Source: Bacillota bacterium (lineage in GTDB: Bacteria; Bacillota; Clostridia; Tissierellales; Tissierellaceae). Taken from it: a DNA stretch of 32,335 nucleotides. Shown piece by piece: positions 3,069-25,198 of the stretch. The stretch is from the NCBI GenBank assembly GCA_030602225.1, contig JAUWAD010000012.1, positions 1-32,335 of the forward strand. The letters run 5' to 3'. The translations under genes and the position numbers were made by a program. A model generated the notes under the pieces. It was not told where the DNA came from, did not search any database, and saw only the letters and a program-made list of their open reading frames with translations. Position 1 is the stretch's first letter, and the number at the start of each line of letters is the position of its first letter.

Positions 3069-4688
3069 ATGGGATTAACAGTTAGAGAAATGCTAAATTA
3101 CAATACATTCAGTGAATTCAAGGTATTAGCTGGCCTGGGTGGATTAGATAATCAGATACAAGGGGTGGCTGTATTAGATGCCCCTGATGGTTACAAGTGG
3201 ACCAGGGGAAAGGAATTGGTTATTGGCTCAGGATACCTTCTTGCGACCCAACCAGGGCTTTTTTGGGAAATCATTAAATCTGATAGGTTTAAGTTAATGT
3301 CAGGTATGGGTATTAAGGAGAGATTCCTAAAGGAGATACCAGAAGATATATTAAGGGAGTTTGATAATAACAATATCCCTCTTATTCTGATTCCTCCTAA
3401 TATCGCATGGATGGATATGATGAATCAGTTAAATGTGATAGTAATGAATAAGAGTATCAGACAATTCAATATAGGGAGAATCAATCCTGTAAGTTATAGT
3501 GACTTGACCTATCAAGTAAGAAAAATAGAACGAATACTCTCCCAGATAGAAAAGGAAATGGGTTTTCCTGGGATGCTTTATGATTTAAATAAGAATAAGG
3601 CATATTATAGTTCCAATAAATTCTTGAAACTAGCTGACAAACTCCAAACAACTGATTTCTGGGATCCATCAATTACCGTTACAAAGGAAGTGCTTTGTGA
3701 TAACTTAAATATGATCAGATACAGATACAAGGATGAACGATATGAACTTCCCTATAGCTGGATTACAATTCCTATAACTGTTATGGGTAAAATAAAGTCA
3801 TACTTTGTACTGGTTGAAGCCACGGGTTTAATAGATTACTTTGATCAGTTTGCCATAAGAATTGGATTTTTATTACTACAATCCCTTTATGAACAGTTGC
3901 TATTTTTAGAGAGCATAGGAGATTTCGGATTTGATAAATTCGTTAATGATATAATATATGGAAATTTGGAGAATCATGATAAGATTAGCTCCAGAGCAGT
4001 GGATATAAACATTGACATGACAAAAAGCTTTTATTATATATCCATGAATCAAATAAACAAATCCATAAGTTCAGCACTATTTAAGGATGATATTAATAGA
4101 ACAATAAATAGTGTCTTTTCCTTTGAAGGTATAAGGACTAGTTTTGTTAATGAGAATAGTGTTTTGATAATGATACCAAAGGAAGAATCTGACTTGGATG
4201 GATATCAAATATCTAATATACAGGAGAATTCAATCAAGATCAGACAAAAAATTGAAAAGAATATACCAAATTCAAAATTTGTCTTTGGCATTTTTGATAA
4301 AGAGACTTCAGTTTATGACCTTAGGAAGTCCTATGAAAAAGCAAACCAGGCTGTTATGATAGGAAGTAGAATTTTTCCTGAAGAAGGTTTTATTAAGTAC
4401 TCACAGTTAGGTGTATTTGCCTGGATACATATTGATGATCAGGAACTAAGACAAATGATGGTGGACTTAGAGAAACTATTTAGTATGTCAGAGGCTGATG
4501 AACTTATAAATACTCTAAAAGTCTATTTAAACTGCAAGATGAACTACAGCACTACGGCTAAAAAACTATACGTTCACATAAATACGGTTAGAAAAAGAAT
4601 TGAGCAGATAAATGATATATTGGGCTTAGACTTAGATGACCCAATTAATAGGATTAAGGTGGAATTACTATTATTAATAGCTAAATAG
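3069..4688 (+). CDS. PucR family transcriptional regulator
   Basis: This 539-residue protein has the PucR layout. An N-terminal PucR domain (about residues 1-125, opening GLTVREMLNY, with a GSGYLLATQPG motif) is followed by a long middle segment resembling the CdaR/GGDEF-like region. A C-terminal PucR-type helix-turn-helix lies at about 475-535 (YLNCKMNYSTTAKKLYVHINTV is the recognisable part). PucR proteins usually activate purine, allantoin or amino-acid catabolic genes in response to a small ligand. Here it follows the DUF5058/hydrolase operon in the same direction, separated by a hairpin, so that operon is its likely target. The weak ribosome site (TAGGTGATGG) sits close to the ATG. A gene-specific terminator follows. 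Confidence 0.85.
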   Translation: MGLTVREMLNYNTFSEFKVLAGLGGLDNQIQGVAVLDAPDGYKWTRGKELVIGSGYLLATQPGLFWEIIKSDRFKLMSGMGIKERFLKEIPEDILREFDNNNIPLILIPPNIAWMDMMNQLNVIVMNKSIRQFNIGRINPVSYSDLTYQVRKIERILSQIEKEMGFPGMLYDLNKNKAYYSSNKFLKLADKLQTTDFWDPSITVTKEVLCDNLNMIRYRYKDERYELPYSWITIPITVMGKIKSYFVLVEATGLIDYFDQFAIRIGFLLLQSLYEQLLFLESIGDFGFDKFVNDIIYGNLENHDKISSRAVDINIDMTKSFYYISMNQINKSISSALFKDDINRTINSVFSFEGIRTSFVNENSVLIMIPKEESDLDGYQISNIQENSIKIRQKIEKNIPNSKFVFGIFDKETSVYDLRKSYEKANQAVMIGSRIFPEEGFIKYSQLGVFAWIHIDDQELRQMMVDLEKLFSMSEADELINTLKVYLNCKMNYSTTAKKLYVHINTVRKRIEQINDILGLDLDDPINRIKVELLLLIAK

Positions 4689-12167: not shown

Positions 12168-12893
12168 TTAATCCATAACTTTTCTTATTAAACTAAAATC
12201 AAATTTATCAGATATAAAGTAACTATCAGAGTACATAACAGGTATACCCTTTGTGCAATAATGGGTTTGCTGTAGATAAAGCATAGCTTTAGACTCTTTT
12301 AGTCTCAAGGCTTTCATAAGTTTGTCATCACTTACAACAGCTTTAATGTTACAGTTGGAAAATGCCATTTTTATACCGTATTTATTCCAGAAATCAAATA
12401 ATGATTGGGTTTGCACCTTGGTATATTCCTCGTACATACCTTCTTTGTAGATCAGGTAGTCTTCAACATATATTACCGGAACCCCATCAGCGGTTCTTAT
12501 TCTTTCAATATAGAGAATATCTTCACCGGGATTGACCCCCAACTTGGAAGCAATCTCATCAGAACAGGGTCTTATATCCACATAGTTGGATAAACTTCCC
12601 GGAATATACCCATGGCTTGTTATGATCTTAGTAAAGCTATCAAGTATTGTAATATTTGAAATGATATTATTTGAGTTTCTGATTACAAATGTACCTACTC
12701 CGTGTCTTGTTGATACCACTCCATCATTTTCCAAGGTTTTAAGAGCTTCCCTAACAGTATTTCTACTAACCCCTAATCTTGCTGATAGTTCATTTTCTGA
12801 AGGAAGCTTAGTCATAACATCCAATGAATTATTTATCATTTCCAGAATTGCTTCTTTTGCTTGTGTAGTTAGTGTCTTTGACGTTAGTTTCAT
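12168..12893 (-). CDS. GntR family regulator with UTRA ligand domain
   Basis: This 241-residue protein has an N-terminal GntR winged helix (about 5-72, with LPSENELSARLGVSRNTVRE and LENDGVVSTRHGVGTFV). A UTRA-type effector domain (about 90-235) carries the ERIRTADGVPVIYVEDYL and GIPVMYSDSYFIS hallmarks. Such HutC-subfamily regulators bind sugar phosphates or other catabolites, and the ligand often relieves repression. It is transcribed divergently from the nucleoside transport and catabolism operon, whose promoter carries a GntR-consensus palindrome. It therefore probably controls that operon and may sense a pentose phosphate intermediate. It ends at a bidirectional terminator. Confidence 0.9.
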   Translation of the reverse strand: MKLTSKTLTTQAKEAILEMINNSLDVMTKLPSENELSARLGVSRNTVREALKTLENDGVVSTRHGVGTFVIRNSNNIISNITILDSFTKIITSHGYIPGSLSNYVDIRPCSDEIASKLGVNPGEDILYIERIRTADGVPVIYVEDYLIYKEGMYEEYTKVQTQSLFDFWNKYGIKMAFSNCNIKAVVSDDKLMKALRLKESKAMLYLQQTHYCTKGIPVMYSDSYFISDKFDFSLIRKVMD

Positions 12894-12922
12894 GTAATCA
12901 CCCTTTTCTTTGGCATATGTTA

Positions 12923-12951
12923 TATATACTTTTTAATTTAAACTTTGTCAA
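12923..12951 (-). promoter_or_regulatory. Promoter of the gntR gene
   Basis: On the minus strand TTGACA (12951-12946) and TATATA (12928-12923) are 17 bases apart, with a perfect -35. The start codon is about 30 bases beyond. Confidence 0.65.
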
Positions 12952-12982
12952 GTCAATGAAGTAAGTTAATGAATAAATTATA

Positions 12983-13011
12983 TTGACAGGTGACATAATA
13001 CATGTTAAATT
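12983..13011 (+). promoter_or_regulatory. Promoter of the nucleoside operon
   Basis: A perfect TTGACA at 12983-12988 is followed after 17 bases by TAAATT (13006-13011). A GntR-type palindrome begins two bases after the -10. The transcript would carry a leader of about 85 bases, which can fold: AGGACA (13018-13023) with TGTCCT (13040-13045), then a weak stem at 13043-13067. I see no known riboswitch core. Confidence 0.6.
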
Positions 13012-13012
13012 A

Positions 13013-13025
13013 GTTGTAGGACAAC
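13013..13025. promoter_or_regulatory. GntR-type operator
   Basis: GTTGT-AGG-ACAAC is a 5-3-5 perfect inverted repeat. It contains the GntR-family core GT-M-N-K-AC (here GTAGGAC). It sits where RNA polymerase starts transcription of the nucleoside operon, so it would act as a repression site. A longer imperfect dyad flanks it: 12992-13006 mirrors 13030-13042. Confidence 0.6.
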
Positions 13026-13101
13026 CAAACAACATATTATGTCCTAGTTATATTATTACTGATTAGGCAAGCGTTGTCAAATAAAATTTGGGAGGACAAA
13101 A

Positions 13102-14169
13102 ATGAGTAAAAGAATTATATCATTAGGATTAGTTTTAATTCTATCACTAGCAGTATTGGCAGGATGTGCAAGTAATGATACTCCAAGTAACACCAATGGC
13201 GATGACAAAGTAAGAGTGGCGATTATCCATGGTAACTTAGGAGATCTTGGATTTATAGACGAAGCTCATATAGGGCTAAACAAAGCAAAAGATGAATTGG
13301 GTATAGAATTCGATTATGCTGAAATCCTAGAAAATAGTGAAGTAGAAACTCAACTTAGAATGTTCTCAGATTCAGAAGAATATGATCTAATAATTGCCCT
13401 TGGAGCAAACTATATAGATCCTTTATTAGCAGTAGCAGCTGATTATCCAGATCAGCAATTCACATTGGCAGATGGAGTTGTGGAAGGATATGATAATATA
13501 AATTCAATCAGAGCATTAGATCCTGAGCAAACTTTCCTTTCAGGAGTTATAGCAGGACTAGTAACATTGGATGAAAGAATGCCACTATCCAACTCACAGA
13601 ATATTATTGGTTTCGTTGGGGGAATGGATACACCAGTATCTAGATCAGGAGCAGCAGGATTCATGGCTGGAGCAAGGTATGTAAACCCAGAGGTACAGTT
13701 TATCTATACGATAGTTGGAAACTACAGAGACCCTGGAACAGCGAAGGAAATTGCAATGACAGCTTATGGTAGAGGTGCAGATGTTATTTCCCACAATGCT
13801 GGTGGATCTGGACTGGGAGTTTTCTCCGCAGCTGAAGAGTCAGACAAGTACGTAATAGGCAGTTCCCTAGCAAGCATAGATCCTCAGAGAAGTTTAGTTA
13901 CTTCAATTAAGAGGATAGACCTATTAATATATCAGGAAATTGAAACGGTTGTAAATGGAACTTGGACACCAGGAGTAGTTCTTAAGGGAATCAGAGACGG
14001 TGTAACTGGTTATAGCAGAGAAGGTATTACAAATGAATTACCTGAAGATATATTGGCAATAGCTGAAGAAGTAAAGCAACAATATATTGATGGTAAATTC
14101 CAATTACCAGAAGATCCAAATCAAGTTGATGCTTGGACATTAGAGAATAATTACGAAGCAAATAAATAA
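13102..14169 (+). CDS. BMP family nucleoside-binding lipoprotein (ABC transporter)
   Basis: This 355-residue lipoprotein has lipobox LAGC with the lipidated Cys at residue 22. The BMP/PnrA fold is evident: IIHGNLGDLGFIDEAHIGL near the start, IIALGANYIDPLL, VGGMDTPVSRSGAAGFMAGA and IISHNAGGSG-like segments. Family members bind purine or pyrimidine nucleosides outside the membrane and hand them to an ABC permease. It is the first gene of the operon, with a GGGAGGA site, and the ATPase gene follows closely. Two phosphorylases downstream support a nucleoside ligand. Binding of another purine-like or sugar ligand cannot be excluded. Confidence 0.88.
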   Translation: MSKRIISLGLVLILSLAVLAGCASNDTPSNTNGDDKVRVAIIHGNLGDLGFIDEAHIGLNKAKDELGIEFDYAEILENSEVETQLRMFSDSEEYDLIIALGANYIDPLLAVAADYPDQQFTLADGVVEGYDNINSIRALDPEQTFLSGVIAGLVTLDERMPLSNSQNIIGFVGGMDTPVSRSGAAGFMAGARYVNPEVQFIYTIVGNYRDPGTAKEIAMTAYGRGADVISHNAGGSGLGVFSAAEESDKYVIGSSLASIDPQRSLVTSIKRIDLLIYQEIETVVNGTWTPGVVLKGIRDGVTGYSREGITNELPEDILAIAEEVKQQYIDGKFQLPEDPNQVDAWTLENNYEANK

Positions 14170-14195
14170 GGAAACTGACCTTGGAGGTTACAAGT

Positions 14196-15734
14196 ATGGA
14201 TATGCTACAAATGAAAAATATAAGCAAATCCTTCCCTGGAACCAAAGCCCTTGATTCAGTGGATTTTTATCTCAAGGAAAGAGAGATACTTTCATTATTA
14301 GGAGAAAATGGAGCCGGAAAGACAACACTTATGAAGGTGCTTTATGGTATGTTACACCCTGATACGGGAGAAATCTATTACAAAGGCGAACAAGTTCATC
14401 TAAAAAGCCCCTTAGATGCTATAAATAAAGGTATATGTATGGTGCACCAACATTTTATGTTGGTGCCTGCATTTACCGTAATGGACAATATCATTGTTGG
14501 TAATGAACCGAAAAGTGGTCTTTTTGTAGATGAAAAGAAAGCAAGGGAAGAAGTAAAGGCACTAATAAACCGATTCAACTTCAATATCAATCCTGACACC
14601 AGGGTGGAAAAATTATCTGTAGGAGAACAACAAAGGGTTGAAATACTAAAAGCACTATATAGAAAGGCGGATGTGATCATTCTCGATGAGCCTACTGCAG
14701 TGCTTACTCCCCATGAGGTTGATTCTCTTTTTGTTATCCTTAGAAAACTTAAAGAAGAAGGAAAGAGCATAGTAATCATCACCCACAAGTTAAGAGAGAC
14801 CATGGCCATAGCAGATAGAATCAATGTTCTAAGGGATGGGAAGATGATAGAAACAGACATTGATCCTAAGAAGGCAACAATACATTCCCTATCGGAGATG
14901 ATGGTTGGAAGACAAGTTGCTCTGGGAATCAAAAGACCTGCGAAAAACATAGGTGATGTAGCCTTTAAGGTTGAGCACCTGAAGGTTATAGAAGATGGAG
15001 TTGCAAAGATAAAAGGTATAGATTTTAGTATTAGAAAAGGCGAAATCCTTGGAATTGCAGGGATTGAAGGAAATGGTCAAACTCAGTTGTTAGAATCACT
15101 TACAGGACTAAATAATCCTGAAAGTATGAAGTTAACCCTAAAGGGCAAAGAAATAAAAGGCAGTGCAGATGTCTTCTTAAGAAGTGGAATAGGACATATC
15201 CCAGAAGATAGACTTACAATGGGTTTAGCTACTGAAATGACAATTAAGGATAATCTTATTCTTGGATATCATAAAAGTCCTAGTCTTCAAAGAAATGGAA
15301 TACTATCTAAAAAGAAAATAAGGGATTACTCAAATAGATGTAAAGAGGACTTTAATATTAAAACTCCTACAATAGATGTAAAGGCAAAATCCCTTTCTGG
15401 AGGAAATCAACAGAAGATTGTTATAGCTAGAACCTTCTCCCATGATCCTGAAGTTATAATTGCTGCTCATCCCACAAGAGGGGTTGATGTGGGTGCTATG
15501 GAATATATACACTCCAAACTGCTTGATTTAAGAGACGAAGGAAAGGCAGTTTTATTAATCTCAGCAGATCTTGATGAAGTAAGAAGTTTAAGTGATAGAA
15601 TTCTGGTGCTTTATGAAGGAAGGATCGTATCAGAAAGTATGCCTGGAGAGCTATCAGAAGTTCAATTAGGCTTGTTGATGACAGGAAATAGAATTGATGA
15701 GGAGGTAGAGGATGAAATCAGGGAAATTGATTAA
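14196..15734 (+). CDS. Nucleoside ABC transporter, double ATPase subunit
   Basis: About 512 residues hold two fused ATP-binding cassettes. The first has Walker A GENGAGKTT (36-44), signature LSVGEQQR and Walker B VIILDEPT. The second has a degenerate Walker A (GIEGNGQTQ, lacking the GKT), signature LSGGNQQK and the altered Walker B region IIAAHPTRGVDVGA. This asymmetry is normal for RbsA/NupO-type sugar and nucleoside importers. I prefer the ATG at 14196 because GGAGGT (14183-14188) lies seven bases upstream; the TTG at 14181 overlaps that site. It overlaps the next permease gene by 23 bases. It energises uptake of the substrate bound by the BMP lipoprotein. Confidence 0.92.
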   Translation: MDMLQMKNISKSFPGTKALDSVDFYLKEREILSLLGENGAGKTTLMKVLYGMLHPDTGEIYYKGEQVHLKSPLDAINKGICMVHQHFMLVPAFTVMDNIIVGNEPKSGLFVDEKKAREEVKALINRFNFNINPDTRVEKLSVGEQQRVEILKALYRKADVIILDEPTAVLTPHEVDSLFVILRKLKEEGKSIVIITHKLRETMAIADRINVLRDGKMIETDIDPKKATIHSLSEMMVGRQVALGIKRPAKNIGDVAFKVEHLKVIEDGVAKIKGIDFSIRKGEILGIAGIEGNGQTQLLESLTGLNNPESMKLTLKGKEIKGSADVFLRSGIGHIPEDRLTMGLATEMTIKDNLILGYHKSPSLQRNGILSKKKIRDYSNRCKEDFNIKTPTIDVKAKSLSGGNQQKIVIARTFSHDPEVIIAAHPTRGVDVGAMEYIHSKLLDLRDEGKAVLLISADLDEVRSLSDRILVLYEGRIVSESMPGELSEVQLGLLMTGNRIDEEVEDEIREID

Positions 15735-16824
15735 CAATAAATTTCTAAAGAGTGGATCTGGATCCTTTACCACTTCAGTTGTTGCTTTTTTATTGGCTAT
15801 TGTTGTGGGAGGTATACTAATAGAACTTGCAGGATTCTCATCCATTGCAACCTATGGTGCCATATTCAGAGGCTCTCTTGGATCCTCCAGGGGTCTGGTT
15901 TTATCCCTAAGTCAGGCAACTCCGTTACTATTGACAGGATTATCCTTTGCAATAGCCTTTAGAGTAAGAATAATAAATACAGGAGCTGAAGGGCAGGTAT
16001 ACATTGGTGCTATGGCAGCAGCCCTTGTGGGAGCCTATGTTAACTTCCTACCAGGAATCACCCATGTGGCAGTGGCAGTATTAGTAGGAATGATAGCAGG
16101 AGGATTGGTGGGGCTATTTATTGGATTTTTGAAGATAAAATTCGGAGCATCAGAAGTAATAGTTGGAATAATGCTTAATGAAATTCTAATCCTTATCACC
16201 GCATGGCTAAGTACAGGCCCATTGATGACTCCAGGAAGTGCTACAGCACAGACAAATCCAATCTTAGAGACGGCAAGGCTGGGAAGGCTTGTACCTAGAT
16301 CCCAATTAACCTGGGCGTTGGTACTGGCAGTTATCATAGCAGTATATTTAGAGTGGATGATAAGAAAAACCACCCTTGGATATGAAATACAGGTTATAGG
16401 TTCAAATCTAAAAGCAGCGAAAACTGCAGGTATAAATGTTCCAAAGATCTACCTACTGACAATATTCATTTCAGGAGCCATAGCTGGATTAGGTGGAGCA
16501 GCACTATCCCTGGGAATTCACTATAGGTTCATTGAAGGAATATCAACAGGATTTGGATTTGCTGGAATTCCAGTGGCTGCTTTAGCAATGTATTCTCCAG
16601 CAGGTGTAGTTGTATCATCCTTTTTATTTGGGGCATTAAGAGCAGGTGCCATGACACTTAATAGGACAACTTCAATCCCGATAGAGTTTGTAAGTGTTGT
16701 TCAGGCACTGGTGGTTGTATTCGTAGCAGCGCCAATGCTTATTGCATCCATAAAGAAGAATTTAATGAGACCATTTAGGGGAATCAAGAACAAGCGAGAG
16801 AGCTTAAAAGGAGGGGATGCATAA
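15712..16824 (+). CDS. Nucleoside ABC transporter permease 1 (NupP-like)
   Basis: The 370-residue permease has about nine to ten membrane segments. The BPD_transp_2 motif lies in the middle: INTGAEGQVYIGAMAAALVG, followed later by GYEIQVIGSNLKAAKTAGI and an ISGAIAGLGGAALSLG stretch. These are typical of RbsC/NupP-like ABC importers. The start codon lies inside the end of the ATPase gene with GGAGG 11 bases before it, so translation is coupled. The stop codon overlaps the ATG of the second permease by one base (TAATG). Confidence 0.9.
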   Translation: MKSGKLINNKFLKSGSGSFTTSVVAFLLAIVVGGILIELAGFSSIATYGAIFRGSLGSSRGLVLSLSQATPLLLTGLSFAIAFRVRIINTGAEGQVYIGAMAAALVGAYVNFLPGITHVAVAVLVGMIAGGLVGLFIGFLKIKFGASEVIVGIMLNEILILITAWLSTGPLMTPGSATAQTNPILETARLGRLVPRSQLTWALVLAVIIAVYLEWMIRKTTLGYEIQVIGSNLKAAKTAGINVPKIYLLTIFISGAIAGLGGAALSLGIHYRFIEGISTGFGFAGIPVAALAMYSPAGVVVSSFLFGALRAGAMTLNRTTSIPIEFVSVVQALVVVFVAAPMLIASIKKNLMRPFRGIKNKRESLKGGDA

Positions 16825-17744
16825 TGGGAGATTGGGCTAATATACTTTATGTAGTTGTGGTTTCTACCATTCGTATGAGCGTTCCCATGATACTAGCATC
16901 AGTAGGTGCGGCTTTCTCCGTTAGATCCGGAATCATGGCACTAGGTTGTGAAGGGATGATGATTGCAGGTGCATTCTTTGCAGTTATGGGTTCATTCTTC
17001 ACTGGTAGTCCATGGATGGGTATTCTATTTGGTATTGTATTTGGAATAATTTTCTCTCTACTACATGGAGTTTTAAATATAAGGTATAAGGTAAATCAAA
17101 CATTAAGTGGTATGAGTGTAAATCTACTGGCAGCGGCAGTGGCGCCACTTATACTTCAAATAGTATGGAAATCAAAAGGTATATCCCCGAAGGTTGCAAG
17201 TTTCAAGAAGCTTAATATTGGAATATTAGAAGAGATTCCAATAATAGGTTCAATCCTTGCTGAACAGAACATACTATTTTATATTACTCTGATTCTTGTT
17301 GTTGTAGGATATTATTATATGTTCAAGACTCCACAGGGCTTAAGAATGAGAATGGTTGGAGAAAATCCAGTGGCAGCAAATACCGTTGGAATAAATGTTG
17401 TTGGATACAAGTACTTGGGAGTAATGCTTAGTGGTGCTTTTAATGGATTAGCTGGAGCATACTTATCTCTGGCACAACTTGATATGTATATAGATGGAAT
17501 GACAGCTGGTAGAGGTTATATTGCCATGGTTATATCAACATTTGGCAAGAACAGTCCAGTTGGAGCAATGCTTGGAAGTCTATTCTTTGGATTCTTTGAT
17601 GCTTTGCAGACAATATTCCAGGGTGGAGTAATTCCAAGTCAAATAGTAAGAACACTACCATATGTCCTTACTATGTTGGTGGTTGTTTTTGGACTGAAAA
17701 GTGCAAGGAACCCAGCAGGTATGGGTAAACACCACGACGAATAA
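16824..17744 (+). CDS. Nucleoside ABC transporter permease 2 (NupQ-like)
   Basis: The 306-residue permease has about eight to nine membrane segments. It shares the family blocks with its partner: RSGIMALGCEGMMIAGAF, KTPQGLRMRMVGENPVAANTVGINV and LSGAFNGLAGAYLSLAQ. Together the two proteins form the membrane channel of the importer. The one-base overlap with the upstream permease indicates translational coupling. A new ribosome site (AAGGAGGA) after the stop serves the isomerase gene 19 bases later, so transport and catabolism share one transcript. Confidence 0.9.
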   Translation: MGDWANILYVVVVSTIRMSVPMILASVGAAFSVRSGIMALGCEGMMIAGAFFAVMGSFFTGSPWMGILFGIVFGIIFSLLHGVLNIRYKVNQTLSGMSVNLLAAAVAPLILQIVWKSKGISPKVASFKKLNIGILEEIPIIGSILAEQNILFYITLILVVVGYYYMFKTPQGLRMRMVGENPVAANTVGINVVGYKYLGVMLSGAFNGLAGAYLSLAQLDMYIDGMTAGRGYIAMVISTFGKNSPVGAMLGSLFFGFFDALQTIFQGGVIPSQIVRTLPYVLTMLVVVFGLKSARNPAGMGKHHDE

Positions 17745-17763
17745 TCATTAAGGAGGAAGTGTA

Positions 17764-18819
17764 GTGACTATTTTAAAGGATTTGAGCATAAAATGGAAAG
17801 AGGAAAATTTGATTCTTCCCATTTGGTATGAAGATGGGCGGGTTAATATAATAGATCAGATTAAACTGCCATTTAATGAAGAAGTTTATAGCCTTGATAG
17901 TGTATCACAGCTGGCAAGGGCAATTAAGGATATGACAATTAGAGGCTCTGGGGCAATTGGAATTGCGGGGGCATATGGTATACTTCTATCTGCTGTTGAG
18001 TCCAATGGTGATATAGAAAGAATAAAAGAAGGTGGATTACTGCTAAAGTCAACAAGACCAACAGCTGTTAATCTTATGAAAACCGTTGATGAAATGATAC
18101 AATATGTGGTTTCATACAGTGGGGATGATATAATCTCATACATTGAGCATATGGTAGCTGAAGTAGTAACAAGACAATTAGATTATGAGAAGAAGCTGGG
18201 AGAGTATGGTGCCAAGCTAATACAAGATGGGGATACGATTCTAACCCACTGTCACTCAGGGGCACTCGCAGGGGCAGGATTTGGAGGAAGAGCACTTTCT
18301 GTTATTAGAACTGCCCATGAAAGTGGCATGAAGATTCATGTATTCACTTCAGAAACCAGACCTTATCTTCAAGGAGCAAGAATTACCGCATACGAGTTGA
18401 TGAAGTGGGGAATCCCCCATACACTTATAACAGATGGTATGAGTGGATATTTAATGAGACTTAAAAAGATACAAAAGATTGTGGTTGGAAGTGATAGAAT
18501 AGCTGCAAATGGTGATCTGTTAAATAAGATTGGAACTTATATGCACGCATTAGCTGCAAAGGAGAATGATGTTCCATTCTATACTGCAACTTCAAGTCAT
18601 ACTATAGATTACAACCTATCCAATGGTATGGATGCAAAGGTTGAGTTTAGAAATGAAGAGGAAGTAACTACTATTAATGGCCAGAGGATTGCTTTGGAAG
18701 GAACAAGGGCATTATACCCATCCTTTGATGTTACACCAAATGAGTTAATCACTGGAATTATCACTGAAAAAGGAGTAATGACAAAACCTTTTACAGACAG
18801 TCTACTAAAAGTTAAATAG
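17764..18819 (+). CDS. mtnA: MtnA-family aldose-1-phosphate isomerase
   Basis: This 351-residue protein matches 5-methylthioribose-1-phosphate isomerase. Visible blocks are MTIRGSGAIGIAGAYG, STRPTAVNL, the catalytic-Cys motif THCHSGALAGAGFG (Cys about 161), ETRPYLQGARITAYEL, and VVGSDRIAANGD with the catalytic Asp, then NKIGTY. MtnA converts an aldose 1-phosphate to the ketose 1-phosphate. In this operon the likely substrates are ribose-1-phosphate from the two phosphorylases, or 5-deoxy/5-methylthio analogues. It starts with GTG behind AAGGAGGA. No methionine-salvage dehydratase or enolase is nearby. A ribose-1,5-bisphosphate isomerase role is less likely by motif. The family is clear; the substrate is inferred. 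Confidence 0.88.
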   Translation: MTILKDLSIKWKEENLILPIWYEDGRVNIIDQIKLPFNEEVYSLDSVSQLARAIKDMTIRGSGAIGIAGAYGILLSAVESNGDIERIKEGGLLLKSTRPTAVNLMKTVDEMIQYVVSYSGDDIISYIEHMVAEVVTRQLDYEKKLGEYGAKLIQDGDTILTHCHSGALAGAGFGGRALSVIRTAHESGMKIHVFTSETRPYLQGARITAYELMKWGIPHTLITDGMSGYLMRLKKIQKIVVGSDRIAANGDLLNKIGTYMHALAAKENDVPFYTATSSHTIDYNLSNGMDAKVEFRNEEEVTTINGQRIALEGTRALYPSFDVTPNELITGIITEKGVMTKPFTDSLLKVK

Positions 18820-18831
18820 GGAGGAATACAA

Positions 18832-19560
18832 ATGTTAAAAGTTGATATAAAGGCACCAACTCATCACATTGAAGCACAAAATGGTGAAATTGCCAAGACG
18901 GTATTAATGCCAGGGGACCCTTTAAGGGCTAAATTCATCGCTGAGACATTCCTTGATGATGTAGTTCAGGTTAATGGAGTAAGGTGTATGTATGCATATA
19001 CTGGAACTTATAAAGGAAAGAAAGTATCAGTAATGGCCAGTGGTATTGGTGCACCAACAATGGGTGTTCACGCTTGGGAATTATACCATTTATACGATGT
19101 AGAAAACATCATCAGAGTAGGAACTACAGGTGGGATCCATCCTGATTTACAAATAGGAGACCTGGTTTTTGCCATGGGAGCATGCTATAACACACCTTAT
19201 GCAGATCAGCATAAGCTTGCTGGAACCTTCTCTGCAATCGCTGACTACAAGCTTATGAGAAGAGGAATTGATTTGGCAGAAGAAAAGAATGTGAAGCATA
19301 TGGTGGGAAATGTATTCTCCAGCGATGTATTCTATCCTGAATTTGGAAGAGAAGATAATGAGAACTGGGCAAAGATGAGTGTATTATCTGTGGAAATGGA
19401 AACAGCCGCCTTATATATCGTTGCAGCAAGAGCAGGCAAAAAAGCTCTATCCATTCTAACCGTATCTGACCATGTTATGACTGGTGAAAAAGTTCCAGCT
19501 GAGGTAAGAGAGAAGAAATTTACTGATATGATGGAAATTGCACTGGAAATTGCTGAATAG
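18832..19560 (+). CDS. deoD: Purine nucleoside phosphorylase, DeoD type
   Basis: The 242-residue protein is the usual length for hexameric DeoD. Motifs include PGDPLRAKFIAE (phosphate loop, about 27), ASGIGAPTMGVHAWEL, VGTTGGIHPDLQ, VEMETAALYIVAARAG, and the catalytic Asp in TVSDH (about 206). It splits purine nucleosides with phosphate to free base and (deoxy)ribose-1-phosphate in the cytoplasm. It lies 12 bases after the isomerase gene and 12 before the aldolase gene. It may also act on 5'-deoxyadenosine or methylthioadenosine-like nucleosides, which would feed MtnA directly. DeoD enzymes favour 6-amino and 6-oxo purines. Confidence 0.93.
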   Translation: MLKVDIKAPTHHIEAQNGEIAKTVLMPGDPLRAKFIAETFLDDVVQVNGVRCMYAYTGTYKGKKVSVMASGIGAPTMGVHAWELYHLYDVENIIRVGTTGGIHPDLQIGDLVFAMGACYNTPYADQHKLAGTFSAIADYKLMRRGIDLAEEKNVKHMVGNVFSSDVFYPEFGREDNENWAKMSVLSVEMETAALYIVAARAGKKALSILTVSDHVMTGEKVPAEVREKKFTDMMEIALEIAE

Positions 19561-19572
19561 GAGGACATCTTT

Positions 19573-20154
19573 ATGGATAATTTAATGGAACTAAAAAAAG
19601 AATTGGTGGATTACTCTAGAAGATGTTATGAGAGAAATCTAATATCAGCCACAGGAGGCAATGTAAGCATTAGAGTCCCTGGAGAGAATGCAATGGTAAT
19701 AAAGGGCTCTGGAAGTGCATTTAGCGATATGACAACTGATGATGTGGTGTTAGTTGATCTTGAAGGCAATCTTTTAGAAGGAGATAAGCCAGTATCAAAA
19801 GAATGGAGATTTCATGCTGGTATATATAAGGTTAGGGAGGATGTAAATGCCGTAGTCCATATTCATCCACCTTATGCAACGGCCATTGCCAATAAGATGG
19901 ATCACCTACCATTGATTACGAATCATGCCAAGGTATATCTTAAGGATGTACCAACAATAGCAAAGGCAGCATCTGGATCTGAGGAACTTGGTGATTTTGC
20001 AATAGCGCCATTTGATGGAACTGAGAGAGTTGCCATCCTAATGGAGGAGCATGGGATAATTTCAGCCAATGTTAATGTGAGGAAGGCTTTTTTCCTAGCT
20101 GAAATGCTGGAGGATACCGCTAAGATATATCTCTTGAGTCAGCTGATAAAGTAG
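19573..20154 (+). CDS. Class II aldolase/adducin family sugar-phosphate aldolase
   Basis: The 193-residue protein has the FucA/AraD fold. Seen are ISATGGNVSIRVPG (about 23-36, phosphate-binding type), KGSGSAFSDMTTDDVV, SKEWRFHAGIYKVRED with the catalytic Glu (about 76), and the zinc ligands in VVHIHPPYATAIA (about 95-98) and EEHGIIS (about 157). Relatives cleave fuculose-1-phosphate, rhamnulose-1-phosphate, ribulose-1-phosphate or 5-deoxyribulose-1-phosphate to dihydroxyacetone phosphate plus an aldehyde. Sitting between two nucleoside phosphorylases and after MtnA, it probably acts on the isomerase product. The methylthioribulose-phosphate dehydratase MtnB belongs to the same superfamily and is the main alternative. 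Confidence 0.88.
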   Translation: MDNLMELKKELVDYSRRCYERNLISATGGNVSIRVPGENAMVIKGSGSAFSDMTTDDVVLVDLEGNLLEGDKPVSKEWRFHAGIYKVREDVNAVVHIHPPYATAIANKMDHLPLITNHAKVYLKDVPTIAKAASGSEELGDFAIAPFDGTERVAILMEEHGIISANVNVRKAFFLAEMLEDTAKIYLLSQLIK

Positions 20155-20163
20155 GAGGTTAAG

Positions 20164-21006
20164 ATGAAGGATAATAAGGATTGGAAATCCAAAGCCAACA
20201 GGCCTGAACTAGATGGAAATCTTCAATATCATATAAGATGCCGACCAGGGGATGTTGCTGATATTGTACTGTTACCAGGAGATCCTGAAAGAGTACCTAA
20301 AATATCACAGATGTGGGATTCCTATGAAGAGAAGGGAAGAAACAGAGAACATGTAACCCACACTGGAGTTTATAAGGGAGTTCCTCTTTCTGCATGTTCC
20401 ACAGGAGCAGGTGGTGGTTCCACTGCCAGTGCCATGGAAGGATTAGCCACAATAGGCGCTAAGACATTCATTCGAGTGGGGACAACTTCTGGAATTCAGG
20501 AGCATATAAGGCCAGGAGATTTGATAATCTCATCAGGAGCTGTTAGATACGATGGAACAAGTGAAAATTATGTTAACTTGAATTATCCTGCTGTGGCTGA
20601 TTATGAAGTAAATCTAGCCCTTATAGAAGCTTGTGAAATACTGGGATACAACTATCATATAGGAATAACTGCAACTACAGCTTCATTCTTCTGTGGACAA
20701 AACAGAGATGGATATGGAGGATACAGACAAAGCTGGTTTCAGGATAGGTATGAGGATTTAAGGGCTGCCAATGTGGTGAATTATGAAATGGAAGCAGCAA
20801 CAGTCCTTACACTTTCAAGTCTGTTTAGAATTAGAGCAGGAGCAATATTCACAGTTATAGGTAACAGGGTCACTGATGAATTTTCATATGAAGGTGTGGA
20901 AAAAAGCATTGAGGCAGCTAGTTTGGCTGCCACCATACTACACAATTGGGATCAGAAAAAGAAGGATAAGAACAAAAGGTACTATTTCCCTTCAATAGAT
21001 AGATAA
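20164..21006 (+). CDS. udp: Uridine phosphorylase-like nucleoside phosphorylase
   Basis: The 280-residue member of the PNP/UDP family has LLPGDPERVPKI (about 37), GAGGGSTASAMEGLATIGAKTFIRVGTTSGIQ split over about 78-108, and EMEAATVLTLSSLFRIRAGA (about 217). The last block matches the uridine-phosphorylase specificity region. It is longer than typical Udp by about 25 residues, partly an N-terminal extension and a Lys-rich tail. It would release uracil or a related base and ribose-1-phosphate. It is the last gene of the operon, nine bases after the aldolase gene, and ends at a strong terminator. It shares no close similarity with the DeoD protein beyond the fold, so the pair probably covers purines and pyrimidines. 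Confidence 0.85.
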   Translation: MKDNKDWKSKANRPELDGNLQYHIRCRPGDVADIVLLPGDPERVPKISQMWDSYEEKGRNREHVTHTGVYKGVPLSACSTGAGGGSTASAMEGLATIGAKTFIRVGTTSGIQEHIRPGDLIISSGAVRYDGTSENYVNLNYPAVADYEVNLALIEACEILGYNYHIGITATTASFFCGQNRDGYGGYRQSWFQDRYEDLRAANVVNYEMEAATVLTLSSLFRIRAGAIFTVIGNRVTDEFSYEGVEKSIEAASLAATILHNWDQKKKDKNKRYYFPSIDR

Positions 21007-21044
21007 AGAAATCACCCATGGACTTAGTCCATGGGTGATTTCTT
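21006..21044. terminator. Strong bidirectional terminator
   Basis: The arms 21006-21023 and 21027-21044 are perfectly complementary over about 18 bases with a TTA loop. The stem opens with AAGAAA and closes with TTTCTT, giving a U-tract on both strands. It separates the nucleoside operon from the convergent membrane-protein gene. Confidence 0.85.
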
Positions 21045-21437
21045 TTAGTTCAATAGATACCAAAGGGCGCTGGGATAGAATAAGTGTAGCAGAAGTAGTA
21101 AAAAGGATATAAAAGCCATCCTTTTATGCCACTGAAACAACTGCCTTTTCTTTAACTTGTAAAAGCTTCCTCCCAAAATGGCTGTTATGAAAATAGACAG
21201 GTATAATAGACTTCCTGTGTGAAGTCTTAAACTACCTAAAGCCATATAGCCATGGACTAATGCCAGAACTGCCATTATTATACCAAAGGGTTTGTGCAGT
21301 CTCCTTAAAAATTTTACAAGATTTCTAAAACCACTACTTTTAGTTTTAATAATATGTCTGTTTAAAAAGTTAAGCACAAAGGGAGCTATAATCACTCCCA
21401 GTAAGATCACATTAAGCCATCCCAATATTTTATACAT
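21045..21437 (-). CDS. Four-helix membrane protein, possibly heme-binding
   Basis: The 130-residue protein has four predicted membrane segments. His residues lie at or near helix ends: LVHGYMAL, LRLHTGSLLY, WHKRMAFI and LLHLF. This spacing resembles small cytochrome b561 or ferric-reductase-like four-helix modules that hold heme b between helices. I do not recognise a named family with confidence. It follows the cytochrome b5-like lipoprotein gene by 21 bases on the same strand with its own GGGGGTG site, so the two are co-transcribed. A quinol-to-surface electron path is possible but inferred. Confidence 0.65.
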   Translation of the reverse strand: MYKILGWLNVILLGVIIAPFVLNFLNRHIIKTKSSGFRNLVKFLRRLHKPFGIIMAVLALVHGYMALGSLRLHTGSLLYLSIFITAILGGSFYKLKKRQLFQWHKRMAFISFLLLLLHLFYPSALWYLLN

Positions 21438-23030: not shown

Positions 23031-23059
23031 AAACAGGATGTTCTTAAAACATCCTGTTT
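23031..23059 (-). terminator. Terminator of the AOR-MoaD operon
   Basis: Twelve-pair stem, AAACAGGATGTT (23031-23042) with AACATCCTGTTT (23048-23059). On the minus strand TTGATTGTTG follows. It begins at the stop codon of the MoaD-like gene. Confidence 0.7.
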
Positions 23060-23345
23060 AACCGCCACCTACAGGTGGAAATATCAAAACTACATCTTTA
23101 TCCTTTAATATAGTGTCCAATCCAGATGTGGCAAATATATTACTACCATTGACAAAGATTGCTATTCTGTTTTTTGTTGAATTAGAGTCCTTCAAAATGA
23201 CATCTTTTATTCCACTGTCATATATTGAATCCATGAGAATAATTAAATCGTAAACACTTATCTCTTCTTCCACATCTAGTGAAATCGAAGTTTTGCCACC
23301 AAAGAGTTCCTTAAAGAAATACAAAGTTTGTACATTTACTTTCAT
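23058..23345 (-). CDS. MoaD/ThiS-like small protein of the AOR operon
   Basis: This 95-residue protein has the beta-grasp pattern of MoaD (VNVQTLYFFKELFGG near the start, IAIFVNGSNI mid-protein) and ends in PPVGGG. The C-terminal Gly-Gly is needed for adenylation and sulfur loading in pterin-dithiolene synthesis. Only two bases separate it from the aldehyde oxidoreductase gene upstream in the transcript. It probably supplies sulfur for tungstopterin of that enzyme. No MoaE or MoeB lies nearby, so the partners must be elsewhere. Confidence 0.87.
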   Translation of the reverse strand: MKVNVQTLYFFKELFGGKTSISLDVEEEISVYDLIILMDSIYDSGIKDVILKDSNSTKNRIAIFVNGSNIFATSGLDTILKDKDVVLIFPPVGGG

Positions 23346-23347
23346 TA

Positions 23348-25198
23348 CTAAACCAAACCTAATTCCATTAGTTTTTCCTTTGTTGGAATACCACTTAAAT
23401 TCCAGCCTCTTTCAGTATAGTAATCATCTAGCATTTTGTCCAAATCTTCCTTTGGAATATAATGACCTTTTGATCCCCCATCCCTTAAAGGTTCATTCAT
23501 GATTCTATAAGGCATTGAATCATCATCCCTTGTCAATCCTGTGGATATATTAAACAATCTGGCTAAGTTGTTTACCCTTTCTCCTACCACCATAACATCA
23601 TCTGCATCATAGCTTACTCCTGTCAATGCTGTTAATAAATCAGCTGTATTTTGTAGCGCAATGGATGGAAGCGCCAAATCTAATAGAAACGCACACATAG
23701 TTGGGCAATCACATGTTGCTGTTCTAACATCTTGGTTCCATTTTGTTAGTTTGCCCTTACCTTCAAGTTGGAACCTATCATAGGCAGCTGGTATGGGAAT
23801 AGCAAAAATTTCCTGGAATGCATAACCCCTATTGTGATCTGCACCTGTGTAGCTGGTAGCATAGTTTAAACCATGAGCTTTAGCTCCTCTTGGATCATAT
23901 GCTGGCAGTTCAAGACCTTTGATATGCATTGCATACTTATAAGCATCCCTTCCTATTTTCTCTGAGAGTACTTTAGTTCCATCACAAAGCAACTTTCCTA
24001 TACCCTCTCTTCTATAAGCCATTTCGATAAGTGCATCATACATAGCTTCATGGTTTCCAAATCTAAAATCTAGACCTCCAACATCATCATTAGTCAGTAT
24101 ACCTTTTTCGTAAAGTTCCATTGCAAAAGCTATTGTTACACCAGCGGACATTGTATCTAATCCAAGCCGATCACAAAGATTATCTGCTGCAATAATGGCA
24201 TCATGCTCTGTCACCCCAGTAACACCACCAAAGCTGTAATAGGTTTCATACTCTGGATCTGATAAAGCACCAACATATTTTGAACTTCCTCTTGCCAACT
24301 TAATGGTTGAGCAAGAAACAGGACAACCATAGCATGGTTCGCTTCCAACTATTGACTGGGCACTTGCTTCAGCACCTATTGATTCAACGTAACTTTTTTC
24401 GCCTGTTGTACTGAAGTTTTCAGAGGGGAATATACCTAATGCACTAATTGCATCCACTATCATGGGAGTACCCATTTTAGAAAAATGTGAATATAGCAAT
24501 GGGCTTTCTTTCATGGCTCCCAGCATCCTGGTCCTTGCCTTCTTGAACTCTTCTTCATCTGCTATTTCAACGGTTTTTGTTCCTCTAACTGCTATTGCTT
24601 TTAAATTCTTGGAACCCATTATTGCACCTGTTCCCTTTCTTCCAAAAGCTCTACGTTCGTTAATTATGCAGGCTAACCTTGATAGGTTCTCACCAGCTGG
24701 TCCAATGCAAGCTACTCTTATGTTTTGATTATTCAAGGAATGCTTAATATAGTTTTGAGTATCAAATGTTTCCATTCCCCATATACCATCAGCTTTCTTA
24801 ATTTTAACTTCATCATCGTTTATGTAAATATATACTGGACTTTCAGACTTTCCTTCGATTATCAATGCATCGTAGCCTGCAAATTTAAGCTCCACGGGGA
24901 AATGGCCTCCAGATGATGACATACCCACTGCACCAGTCAGTGGAGACTTTGTTACAACTGACATCCGACTGGCACAGGGGGTACTGGTGCCTGTCAATGG
25001 CCCGTTGACGAATATTAGTTTATTATCTTCTGAAAAAGGATCTATGTCACCAGGAACTTCCTTAACAAGGTAATTAATACCAATTCCTGCACCACCAACA
25101 AAATCCTTTGCTATCTTGGGATCTAAAGATTCTTTTTTTATGTCACCAGTTGTGAGATTTACTCTTAGAACCAATCCCATATAACCACCTTTGTACAT
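23348..25198 (-). CDS. aor: Aldehyde:ferredoxin oxidoreductase, tungsten type
   Basis: The 616-residue length is normal for AOR. The N-terminal domain opens with LVLRVNLTTGDIK and contains GPLTGTSTPCASRMSVVTKSP and SSSGGHFPVELKFAGYDALI blocks that bind the bis-pterin. The [4Fe-4S] ligands form CYGCPVSC (about 292-299), with the later fourth ligand in DCPTMC (about 515). AOR oxidises aldehydes to acids, or the reverse, with ferredoxin. A downstream MoaD-like gene fits cofactor supply. The ATG at 25198, with AAGGGGTGG upstream, gives the family-like start; an ATG six codons later also has a ribosome site. Possible substrates include aldehydes from amino-acid fermentation and from the aldolase encoded nearby. 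Confidence 0.93.
   Translation of the reverse strand: MYKGGYMGLVLRVNLTTGDIKKESLDPKIAKDFVGGAGIGINYLVKEVPGDIDPFSEDNKLIFVNGPLTGTSTPCASRMSVVTKSPLTGAVGMSSSGGHFPVELKFAGYDALIIEGKSESPVYIYINDDEVKIKKADGIWGMETFDTQNYIKHSLNNQNIRVACIGPAGENLSRLACIINERRAFGRKGTGAIMGSKNLKAIAVRGTKTVEIADEEEFKKARTRMLGAMKESPLLYSHFSKMGTPMIVDAISALGIFPSENFSTTGEKSYVESIGAEASAQSIVGSEPCYGCPVSCSTIKLARGSSKYVGALSDPEYETYYSFGGVTGVTEHDAIIAADNLCDRLGLDTMSAGVTIAFAMELYEKGILTNDDVGGLDFRFGNHEAMYDALIEMAYRREGIGKLLCDGTKVLSEKIGRDAYKYAMHIKGLELPAYDPRGAKAHGLNYATSYTGADHNRGYAFQEIFAIPIPAAYDRFQLEGKGKLTKWNQDVRTATCDCPTMCAFLLDLALPSIALQNTADLLTALTGVSYDADDVMVVGERVNNLARLFNISTGLTRDDDSMPYRIMNEPLRDGGSKGHYIPKEDLDKMLDDYYTERGWNLSGIPTKEKLMELGLV

Follow-up and report, generated by a model that had tools for sequence, protein, structure and literature searches.

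A nucleoside operon with an MtnA-family isomerase and a class II aldolase in a Tissierellaceae genome: a proposed kinase-free route for ribose-1-phosphate

We analyzed contig JAUWAD010000012.1 (assembly GCA_030602225.1; 32,335 nucleotides, here called the window) from a Bacillota bacterium of the family Tissierellaceae, which carries an eight-gene operon that combines a nucleoside importer and two nucleoside phosphorylases with an MtnA-family isomerase and a class II aldolase. We consider it probable that the operon is under regulation and serves to break down ordinary ribonucleosides, and that ribose-1-phosphate (R1P) would be converted through ribulose-1-phosphate (Ru1P) to dihydroxyacetone phosphate (DHAP) and glycolaldehyde. 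We also lean toward regarding the subclade to which the isomerase belongs (the RGSG subclade) as a dedicated R1P isomerase that serves a kinase-free nucleoside-ribose route spread across Bacillota (Tissierellales, Bacillaceae, Lachnospiraceae, and Moorella), beside or instead of phosphopentomutase. In the textbook scheme, R1P passes through phosphopentomutase to the pentose phosphate pathway, and bisphosphate routes are used in some archaea. If our reading is correct, turning R1P into Ru1P with a single enzyme would add a third option, with no ATP cost and with glycolaldehyde as a product. The MtnA-annotated proteins at these loci, at least 16 in number, would then not be methionine-salvage enzymes, and the residue signature R-G-S-G plus C-H could be used to reannotate MtnA-labeled proteins.

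A tight operon with predicted roles in nucleoside uptake and cleavage

The eight genes all lie on the plus strand at 13102-21006 of the window, where adjacent genes overlap by at most 23 bases or are separated by gaps of at most 19 bases; with a divergent GntR-family gene, the whole unit spans 12168-21006. Proteins were assigned to families using Pfam and NCBIfam profiles with curated cut-offs.

12168-12893, minus strand: GntR/UTRA (HutC-type) regulator, divergent from the operon (PF00392 and PF07702)
13102-14169, plus strand: BMP/PnrA-type nucleoside-binding lipoprotein of an ABC importer (PF02608, E 1.7e-46)
14181-15734, plus strand: ABC importer ATPase with two ABC domains (PF00005, two stretches)
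15712-16824, plus strand: ABC importer permease 1 (PF02653, BPD_transp_2)
16824-17744, plus strand: ABC importer permease 2 (PF02653, BPD_transp_2)
17764-18819, plus strand: MtnA-family isomerase of the RGSG/CHSG subclade (TIGR00512), proposed R1P isomerase with predicted catalytic residues C163 and D244
18832-19560, plus strand: DeoD-type purine nucleoside phosphorylase (TIGR00107, 268.5 bits, cut-off 232.25)
19573-20154, plus strand: class II (FucA-like) aldolase (Aldolase_II, PF00596), proposed Ru1P aldolase
20164-21006, plus strand: uridine phosphorylase-like (Udp-like) protein (TIGR01718, 275.4 bits, slightly below the cut-off of 280.3)

Coordinates, strand, gaps, and family assignments agree with the tight unit described in the first-pass annotation, whose gene set was right except that it left out the GntR/UTRA regulator, which is part of the unit. 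Because the same set recurs at 16 isomerase genes that were found with the isomerase sequence alone, we regard the arrangement as more than chance. A terminator scan of 21007-21200 found no terminator-like site, and the next gene is on the opposite strand.

All substrates and reactions are predicted from sequence. In the proposed pathway, ribonucleosides would be taken up by the BMP-type ABC importer and cleaved with inorganic phosphate by DeoD and the Udp-like enzyme, giving the base and R1P. The isomerase, through C163 and D244, would convert R1P to Ru1P, which the class II aldolase would split into DHAP and glycolaldehyde. DHAP would enter glycolysis, glycolaldehyde would be oxidized or reduced elsewhere, and no ATP would be spent on the sugar, the route being free of a kinase. 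Elsewhere in the same genome, contig C57 (L049) carries a further BMP-type ABC importer together with a Udp-like gene, but neither an isomerase nor an aldolase.

The isomerase belongs to a separate subclade of the MtnA family

Searches with the isomerase sequence alone identified a subclade of 16 loci, all in Bacillota, of which 15 were complete enough for a tree. These comprise the window, seven full-length loci and one cut locus (G115, L068) among 199 genomes of the order, six named records, and one locus (G580) among 398 genomes of the phylum; since some carriers are closely related (Moorella and G580; Gudongella and Soehngenia), locus counts are not counts of independent events. L068, whose isomerase gene runs off the end of its contig, was counted among the 16 loci and left out of the tree. 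There are 13 named records in all, seven of which duplicate genomes of the order sample. Among the named carriers are Tissierella sp. P1, [Clostridium] ultunense, Bacillus sp. Marseille-Q3570, Neobacillus soli, Moorella stamsii, [Clostridium] citroniae, and a Lachnospiraceae metagenome-assembled genome. The Tissierella P1 locus has permease 1 broken into two frames and a short Udp frame, and may thus have suffered damage or poor assembly. A plasmid collection yielded no match at E 1e-60.

In a quick tree with SH-aLRT support only and with long branches for C80, L052, and 2yrf, the 15 subclade rows fell on one side of a branch with SH-aLRT 97, opposite 47 conventional MtnA rows. The latter represent 44 loci plus chains from T. 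maritima, A. fulgidus, and B. subtilis; the 44 loci are 23 of the best-scoring conventional rows of the order search and 21 of 24 rows of the phylum search, weaker rows having been left out. Lachnospiraceae and Bacillaceae members are interspersed among the Tissierellales ones, a pattern that suggests transfer. By their motifs, one subclade copy and one conventional copy occur together in genomes G057 and G102, and the two types therefore probably differ in role. Three further carriers (G140, G094, and G055) have, besides the subclade copy, a second match that is 43-45% identical.

More distant relatives were also seen, and genomes of the order frequently gave matches at about 30-36% identity. 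Contig C80 of the window's own genome (L047:8927-10817) encodes a second, very divergent MtnA-like protein, 30% identical, downstream of genes for a PunA-type purine nucleoside phosphorylase and an iron alcohol dehydrogenase; its RG motif has no arginine (Q-S-A-G), while the Cys and Asp are retained. At L052:3892-11051, a 325-amino-acid protein resembling ribose-1,5-bisphosphate (R15P) isomerase, with Ser (S-Y-S) in the catalytic Cys column, adjoins a BMP importer and a GntR gene.

The C5 pocket is altered throughout the subclade

R1P, 5-deoxyribose-1-phosphate, methylthioribose-1-phosphate, and R15P differ at C5. To compare the residues around this position, we put all 62 rows of both groups into one alignment with two R15P isomerases and read it by the ligand contacts published for PH0208. 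The catalytic, sugar, and 1-phosphate positions (R60, R98, C163, Q203, D244, N254, and K255) are invariant in 62 of 62 rows. The pocket is not: the window protein lacks the conventional letters R-G-A-P and C-N-[AT]-G and has R-G-S-G and C-H-S-G instead. Positions 62-63 are S-G in 15/15 subclade rows and A-P in 47/47 conventional rows, and position 164 is H in all 15 of the former versus N in all 47 of the latter. The separation extends to position 165 (S in 11 and A in 4, versus A in 33 and T in 14), position 277 (S in 14 and A in 1, versus P in 47), position 279 (H in 11 and Y in 4, versus S, T, or A), and position 106 (K or R, versus W in 46 of 47 conventional rows).

In the portion of the PH0208 study that describes the ligand contacts (PMC5789824), the equivalents of residues 62, 63, 165, 166, and 167 hold the 5-phosphate. 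The change thus sits where R1P, with its 5-hydroxyl, differs from methylthioribose-1-phosphate and 5-deoxyribose-1-phosphate. The position of the 5-phosphate lysine of R15P isomerase (K240 of PH0208) is T280 in the window protein and T or N in 15/15 subclade members.

The predicted structure of the window isomerase (pLDDT 90.1, from a 12-sequence alignment) superimposed on 1t9k with Z 46.0 and rmsd 1.9 over 334 aligned residues and on 2yvk with Z 44.3; it was less similar to the R15P isomerase 5yfj (Z 32.4) and is thus closer to MtnA. By the model, the window isomerase is an MtnA in its fold, with an altered and more polar C5 pocket, and we infer from the alignment that the alteration means R1P as the substrate.

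Subclade loci are linked to nucleoside genes

We counted neighboring genes up to about 8 kb from the isomerase at the 16 subclade loci and the 44 conventional loci, several flanks being shorter at contig ends. Uridine phosphorylase was present at 12/16 subclade loci and DeoD at 6/16, versus 0/44 conventional loci for each. SAH (S-adenosylhomocysteine) hydrolase showed the reverse distribution (0/16 versus 12/44). An aldolase adjoined 15 of the 16 subclade isomerases, the sixteenth isomerase being the one cut at a contig end, and 25 of the 44 conventional ones. BMP-type ABC importers (8/16 versus 3/44) and GntR genes (10/16 versus 5/44) were likewise found on both sides, and adenosine deaminase was found at 4/16 subclade loci. 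These counts indicate that conventional loci resemble salvage of S-adenosylmethionine by-products and subclade loci resemble nucleoside use. The first-pass annotation had proposed nucleosides as food and the sequence from R1P through Ru1P to DHAP and glycolaldehyde. Both proposals gain support by inference: the subclade isomerases keep company with genes for uridine phosphorylase, DeoD, and nucleoside import, and their C5 pocket has changed toward polar residues.

Other genes recur beside the subclade isomerases. Six of the 16 loci (L042:5071-7686, L059, L063, L067, L068, and L069) have, divergent beside GntR, a FucI-like protein of 393-423 amino acids without a Pfam match and an SsnA/deoxyadenosine-deaminase-like amidohydrolase. 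An IlvD/Edd dehydratase with an aldehyde:ferredoxin oxidoreductase (AOR) or an aldehyde dehydrogenase lies beside the subclade loci L046:12012-17091, L058:2-4174, and L061:8-4092, with a Lar_N protein identified by Pfam in L046 and LarA-like proteins recognized by eye in L058 and L061. The IlvD/Edd, Lar-type, and AOR or aldehyde dehydrogenase neighbors perhaps form a sugar-acid branch.

The phosphorylases and the aldolase keep their active-site residues

In the Udp-like proteins, Q179, R181, E208-E210, and R235 are invariant in 12/12 sequences, and the DeoD proteins keep H11, H12, R32, R51, R95, E188-E190, and D213 in 6/6. We take these to be the ordinary active-site positions, including the His that meets the 5'-hydroxyl; on this sequence comparison, both phosphorylases appear to keep ordinary active sites. 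We had also considered a His position of the MTAP-like phosphorylases as a 5'-hydroxyl contact and dropped it because conventional loci have the same His.

Aldolase residues E77, H96, and H98 are invariant in 15/15 rows, and H160 is present in all 14 rows that have letters there; E77 aligns with a Glu of the FucA chain 4c25. Subclade loci contain two aldolase types, 65-74% and 38-44% identical to the window aldolase. An MtnB dehydratase function, which the first-pass annotation had named as counting against its pathway, was rejected for the aldolase, as the protein scored only 63.7 bits against TIGR03328 (cut-off 137.05). The score against the haloarchaeal Ru1P aldolase family NF053831 was 95.3 bits (cut-off 300), which places the two in the same superfamily only.

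Candidate regulatory sequences upstream of the operon

Two candidate sites lie between the regulator and the operon.

12983-13011, plus strand: sigma-70-like promoter TTGACA-17-TAAATT (promoter scan)
13017-13028, no strand assigned: degenerate operator-like palindrome TAGGACAACCAA, with 3 mismatches to the consensus of relatives, TTGGACGTCCAA

Alone, the promoter is weak evidence (33 such sites were seen versus 27.6 expected in shuffles), and the consensus score of the window palindrome was reached by 19/300 shuffles and is not significant by itself. Of the 15 remaining subclade loci, 9 encode GntR homologues that are 53-63% identical, and 9 of 10 related intergenic regions have a TTGACA-like box ahead of the palindrome. 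The palindrome TTGGACGTCCAA is perfect in three relatives (L059:5537, L060:7324, and L067:7271), where it follows a TTGACA box in GntR-divergent regions and was reached by 0/300 shuffles each. By sequence, the putative operator motif is clear among relatives and weak in the window. A PucR-type purine-catabolism regulator is encoded at 3069-4688 of the window, 8 kb upstream of the operon.

Phosphopentomutase and pentose phosphate enzymes in the genome

The host genome is a draft of 2.08 Mb in 138 contigs and is 96.8% complete. DeoB was not found in this draft (no match to TIGR01696), and the sole PF01676 match lies in a GAPDH-PGK-TPI-enolase glycolytic cluster. DeoB scored above the cut-off in 54 of the 199 genomes of the order, in 0 of 9 subclade carriers, and in no genome of the window's family in that sample. 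Because it is missing across the whole family, its absence reads as a lineage trait and is no proof of replacement. DeoB is present in 6 of the 13 named carriers, exactly those six outside the sampled genomes of the order (6/6), Neobacillus soli being one of them; we therefore rejected replacement of DeoB as a general rule. The genome also has a 562-amino-acid mutase of the phosphoglucomutase (PGM) type, PGM2-sized, that may act as a phosphopentomutase, as well as transketolase, RpiB, DeoC (at a contig edge), and five PNP_UDP_1 proteins.

The first-pass annotation had placed the isomerase and aldolase in the role of phosphopentomutase and had the route bypass the pentose phosphate pathway. The first claim is supported only in part: no deoB was found in the genome or the sampled family, but the carriers elsewhere have it, and the PGM-type mutase is a candidate for the same step. 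A deoB gene co-regulated elsewhere, which the annotation had regarded as contrary evidence, was not seen, none being found in the genome. The second claim is at most partly supported; since transketolase, RpiB, and DeoC are present, a bypass is not forced by missing genes.

Alternative explanations

Several observations weigh against a dedicated ribonucleoside pathway. The complete isomerase protein still scores above the MtnA equivalog cut-off (TIGR00512, 361.9 bits versus 279). Residue 165 is Ala rather than Ser in 4/15 subclade members, and K106, along with K278 in four members, may hold a phosphate. The six carriers outside the order sample have DeoB and so do not need the route for ribose. 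MTAP-like phosphorylases lie near the isomerase at 9/16 subclade loci (36/44 conventional) and deoxyadenosine-deaminase-like amidohydrolases at 12/16 (22/44 conventional), neighbors that are also typical of 5'-deoxynucleoside salvage and may keep 5'-deoxynucleosides as substrates for part of the subclade. The operon also contains no aldehyde-handling enzyme. An AOR with a ThiS/MoaD-like neighbor is encoded at 23058-25198 on the minus strand, 2 kb downstream of the operon, and it is our guess that it could oxidize glycolaldehyde; the surroundings of the G102 copy likewise include an AOR, and those of the Bacillus copy an aldehyde dehydrogenase.

These neighbors bear most directly on a DHAP shunt for 5'-deoxynucleosides such as 5'-deoxyadenosine and methylthioadenosine, in which phosphorylases would replace the nucleosidase and kinase and the products would be DHAP and acetaldehyde or methylthioacetaldehyde. 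In such a shunt the isomerase and aldolase would belong to the families known from drdKIA, gene clusters headed by an MTAP-like phosphorylase have been described (PMC6079011), and the DeoB of some carriers fits it as well. We nevertheless consider it unlikely, given that uridine phosphorylase and SAH hydrolase divide the two groups of loci in opposite directions (12/16 versus 0/44 and 0 versus 12), that the C5 pocket has turned polar, and that the window operon has no MTAP-like gene or deaminase. We also know of no bulk source of 5'-deoxyuridine. Equally doubtful, in our view, is a broad-range unit that would accept R1P, 5-deoxyribose-1-phosphate, and methylthioribose-1-phosphate alike and leave the choice of input to the neighboring phosphorylases, ribonucleosides here and deoxynucleosides elsewhere. 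The phosphorylase set does differ from locus to locus, DrdA and the haloarchaeal Ru1P aldolase accept several aldehydes (excerpts of PMC6079011 and PMC9700705), and the MtnA of M. jannaschii serves two pathways (excerpt of PMC6302742). The pocket changes, however, are common to the whole subclade and separate all 62 rows, and the two genomes that retain both isomerase types suggest specialization.

The PGM-type mutase, transketolase, RpiB, and DeoC would also allow R1P to flow mainly to ribose-5-phosphate and the pentose phosphate pathway, leaving the isomerase and aldolase for a minor sugar; we think this improbable, as both genes lie within a nucleoside operon and are linked to nucleoside phosphorylases even in distant genomes. 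Least probable of all is a bisphosphate route, in which an unlinked R1P kinase would make R15P, the isomerase would convert it to ribulose-1,5-bisphosphate (RuBP), and a phosphatase or RuBisCO would follow. The motifs RGSG...CHSG do resemble RGAG...CHSK of R15P isomerases, and haloarchaea use a phosphorylase, kinase, isomerase, phosphatase, and aldolase in this way (PMC9700705, in part). Against this, the 5-phosphate lysine is replaced by T or N, the model is closer to MtnA (Z 46.0) than to R15P isomerase (Z 32.4), and no kinase or phosphatase gene was seen by eye in the GntR-to-Udp operons, the rest of the genome not having been searched for either. RuBisCO-family proteins gave no match in 15/16 carrier genomes, the window's included; the lone match was in Neobacillus (126.9 bits), and we rejected the carboxylating form of the route on this basis. 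The K240 equivalent and the RuBisCO result together make a bisphosphate route less likely.

Comparison with known systems

Searches of the open-license PMC literature listed no title or abstract on the isomerization of R1P by an MtnA relative, and the proposed route is best compared with four known systems. In the fold as a whole, the catalytic Cys and Asp, and the 1-phosphate residues, the isomerase resembles MtnA of methionine salvage, from which it differs at the C5-pocket positions in 15/15 subclade members and by its separate branch (SH-aLRT 97). Conventional RGAP/CN isomerases in our sample adjoin MTAP-like and SAH-hydrolase genes, unlike that of the window. Like the R15P isomerases TK0185 and PH0208, the subclade has a Gly following RG-x, as well as C-H-S; unlike them, it is without the 5-phosphate lysine and has the MtnA N-terminal part (model residues 14-43).

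The DHAP shunt, or drdKIA system, uses an MtnA-family isomerase and a class II aldolase on 5-deoxy sugars (PMC6079011, PMC10986504, and PMC12632272, each in the part available). The window operon likewise encodes these two enzymes together, some shunt clusters begin with a phosphorylase (PMC6079011, same part), and the products are again DHAP and an aldehyde. The window cluster differs in having DeoD and a Udp-like protein and no methylthioribose-type kinase or MTAP-type phosphorylase. The available parts of the three papers mention no uridine phosphorylase, DeoD, or BMP importer, and those of the two E. coli papers (PMC10986504 and PMC12632272) do not contain the term ribose-1-phosphate.

In the non-carboxylating pentose bisphosphate pathway of haloarchaea, as given in the accessible text of PMC9700705 and restated in that of PMC12628685, a kinase, an isomerase, and a phosphatase convert R1P to R15P, RuBP, and Ru1P in turn, and a Ru1P aldolase of the same superfamily as the window aldolase is proven (PMC9700705). 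As there, a nucleoside phosphorylase would feed R1P into the route described here, and a FucA-like class II aldolase is proposed to split Ru1P into DHAP and glycolaldehyde. The window aldolase is a distant relative of the haloarchaeal enzyme, and a single MtnA-family isomerase is proposed to convert R1P directly to Ru1P. By analogy, we propose that the route works like a kinase-free form of the haloarchaeal Ru1P route or, seen from the other side, a DHAP shunt for ordinary nucleosides.

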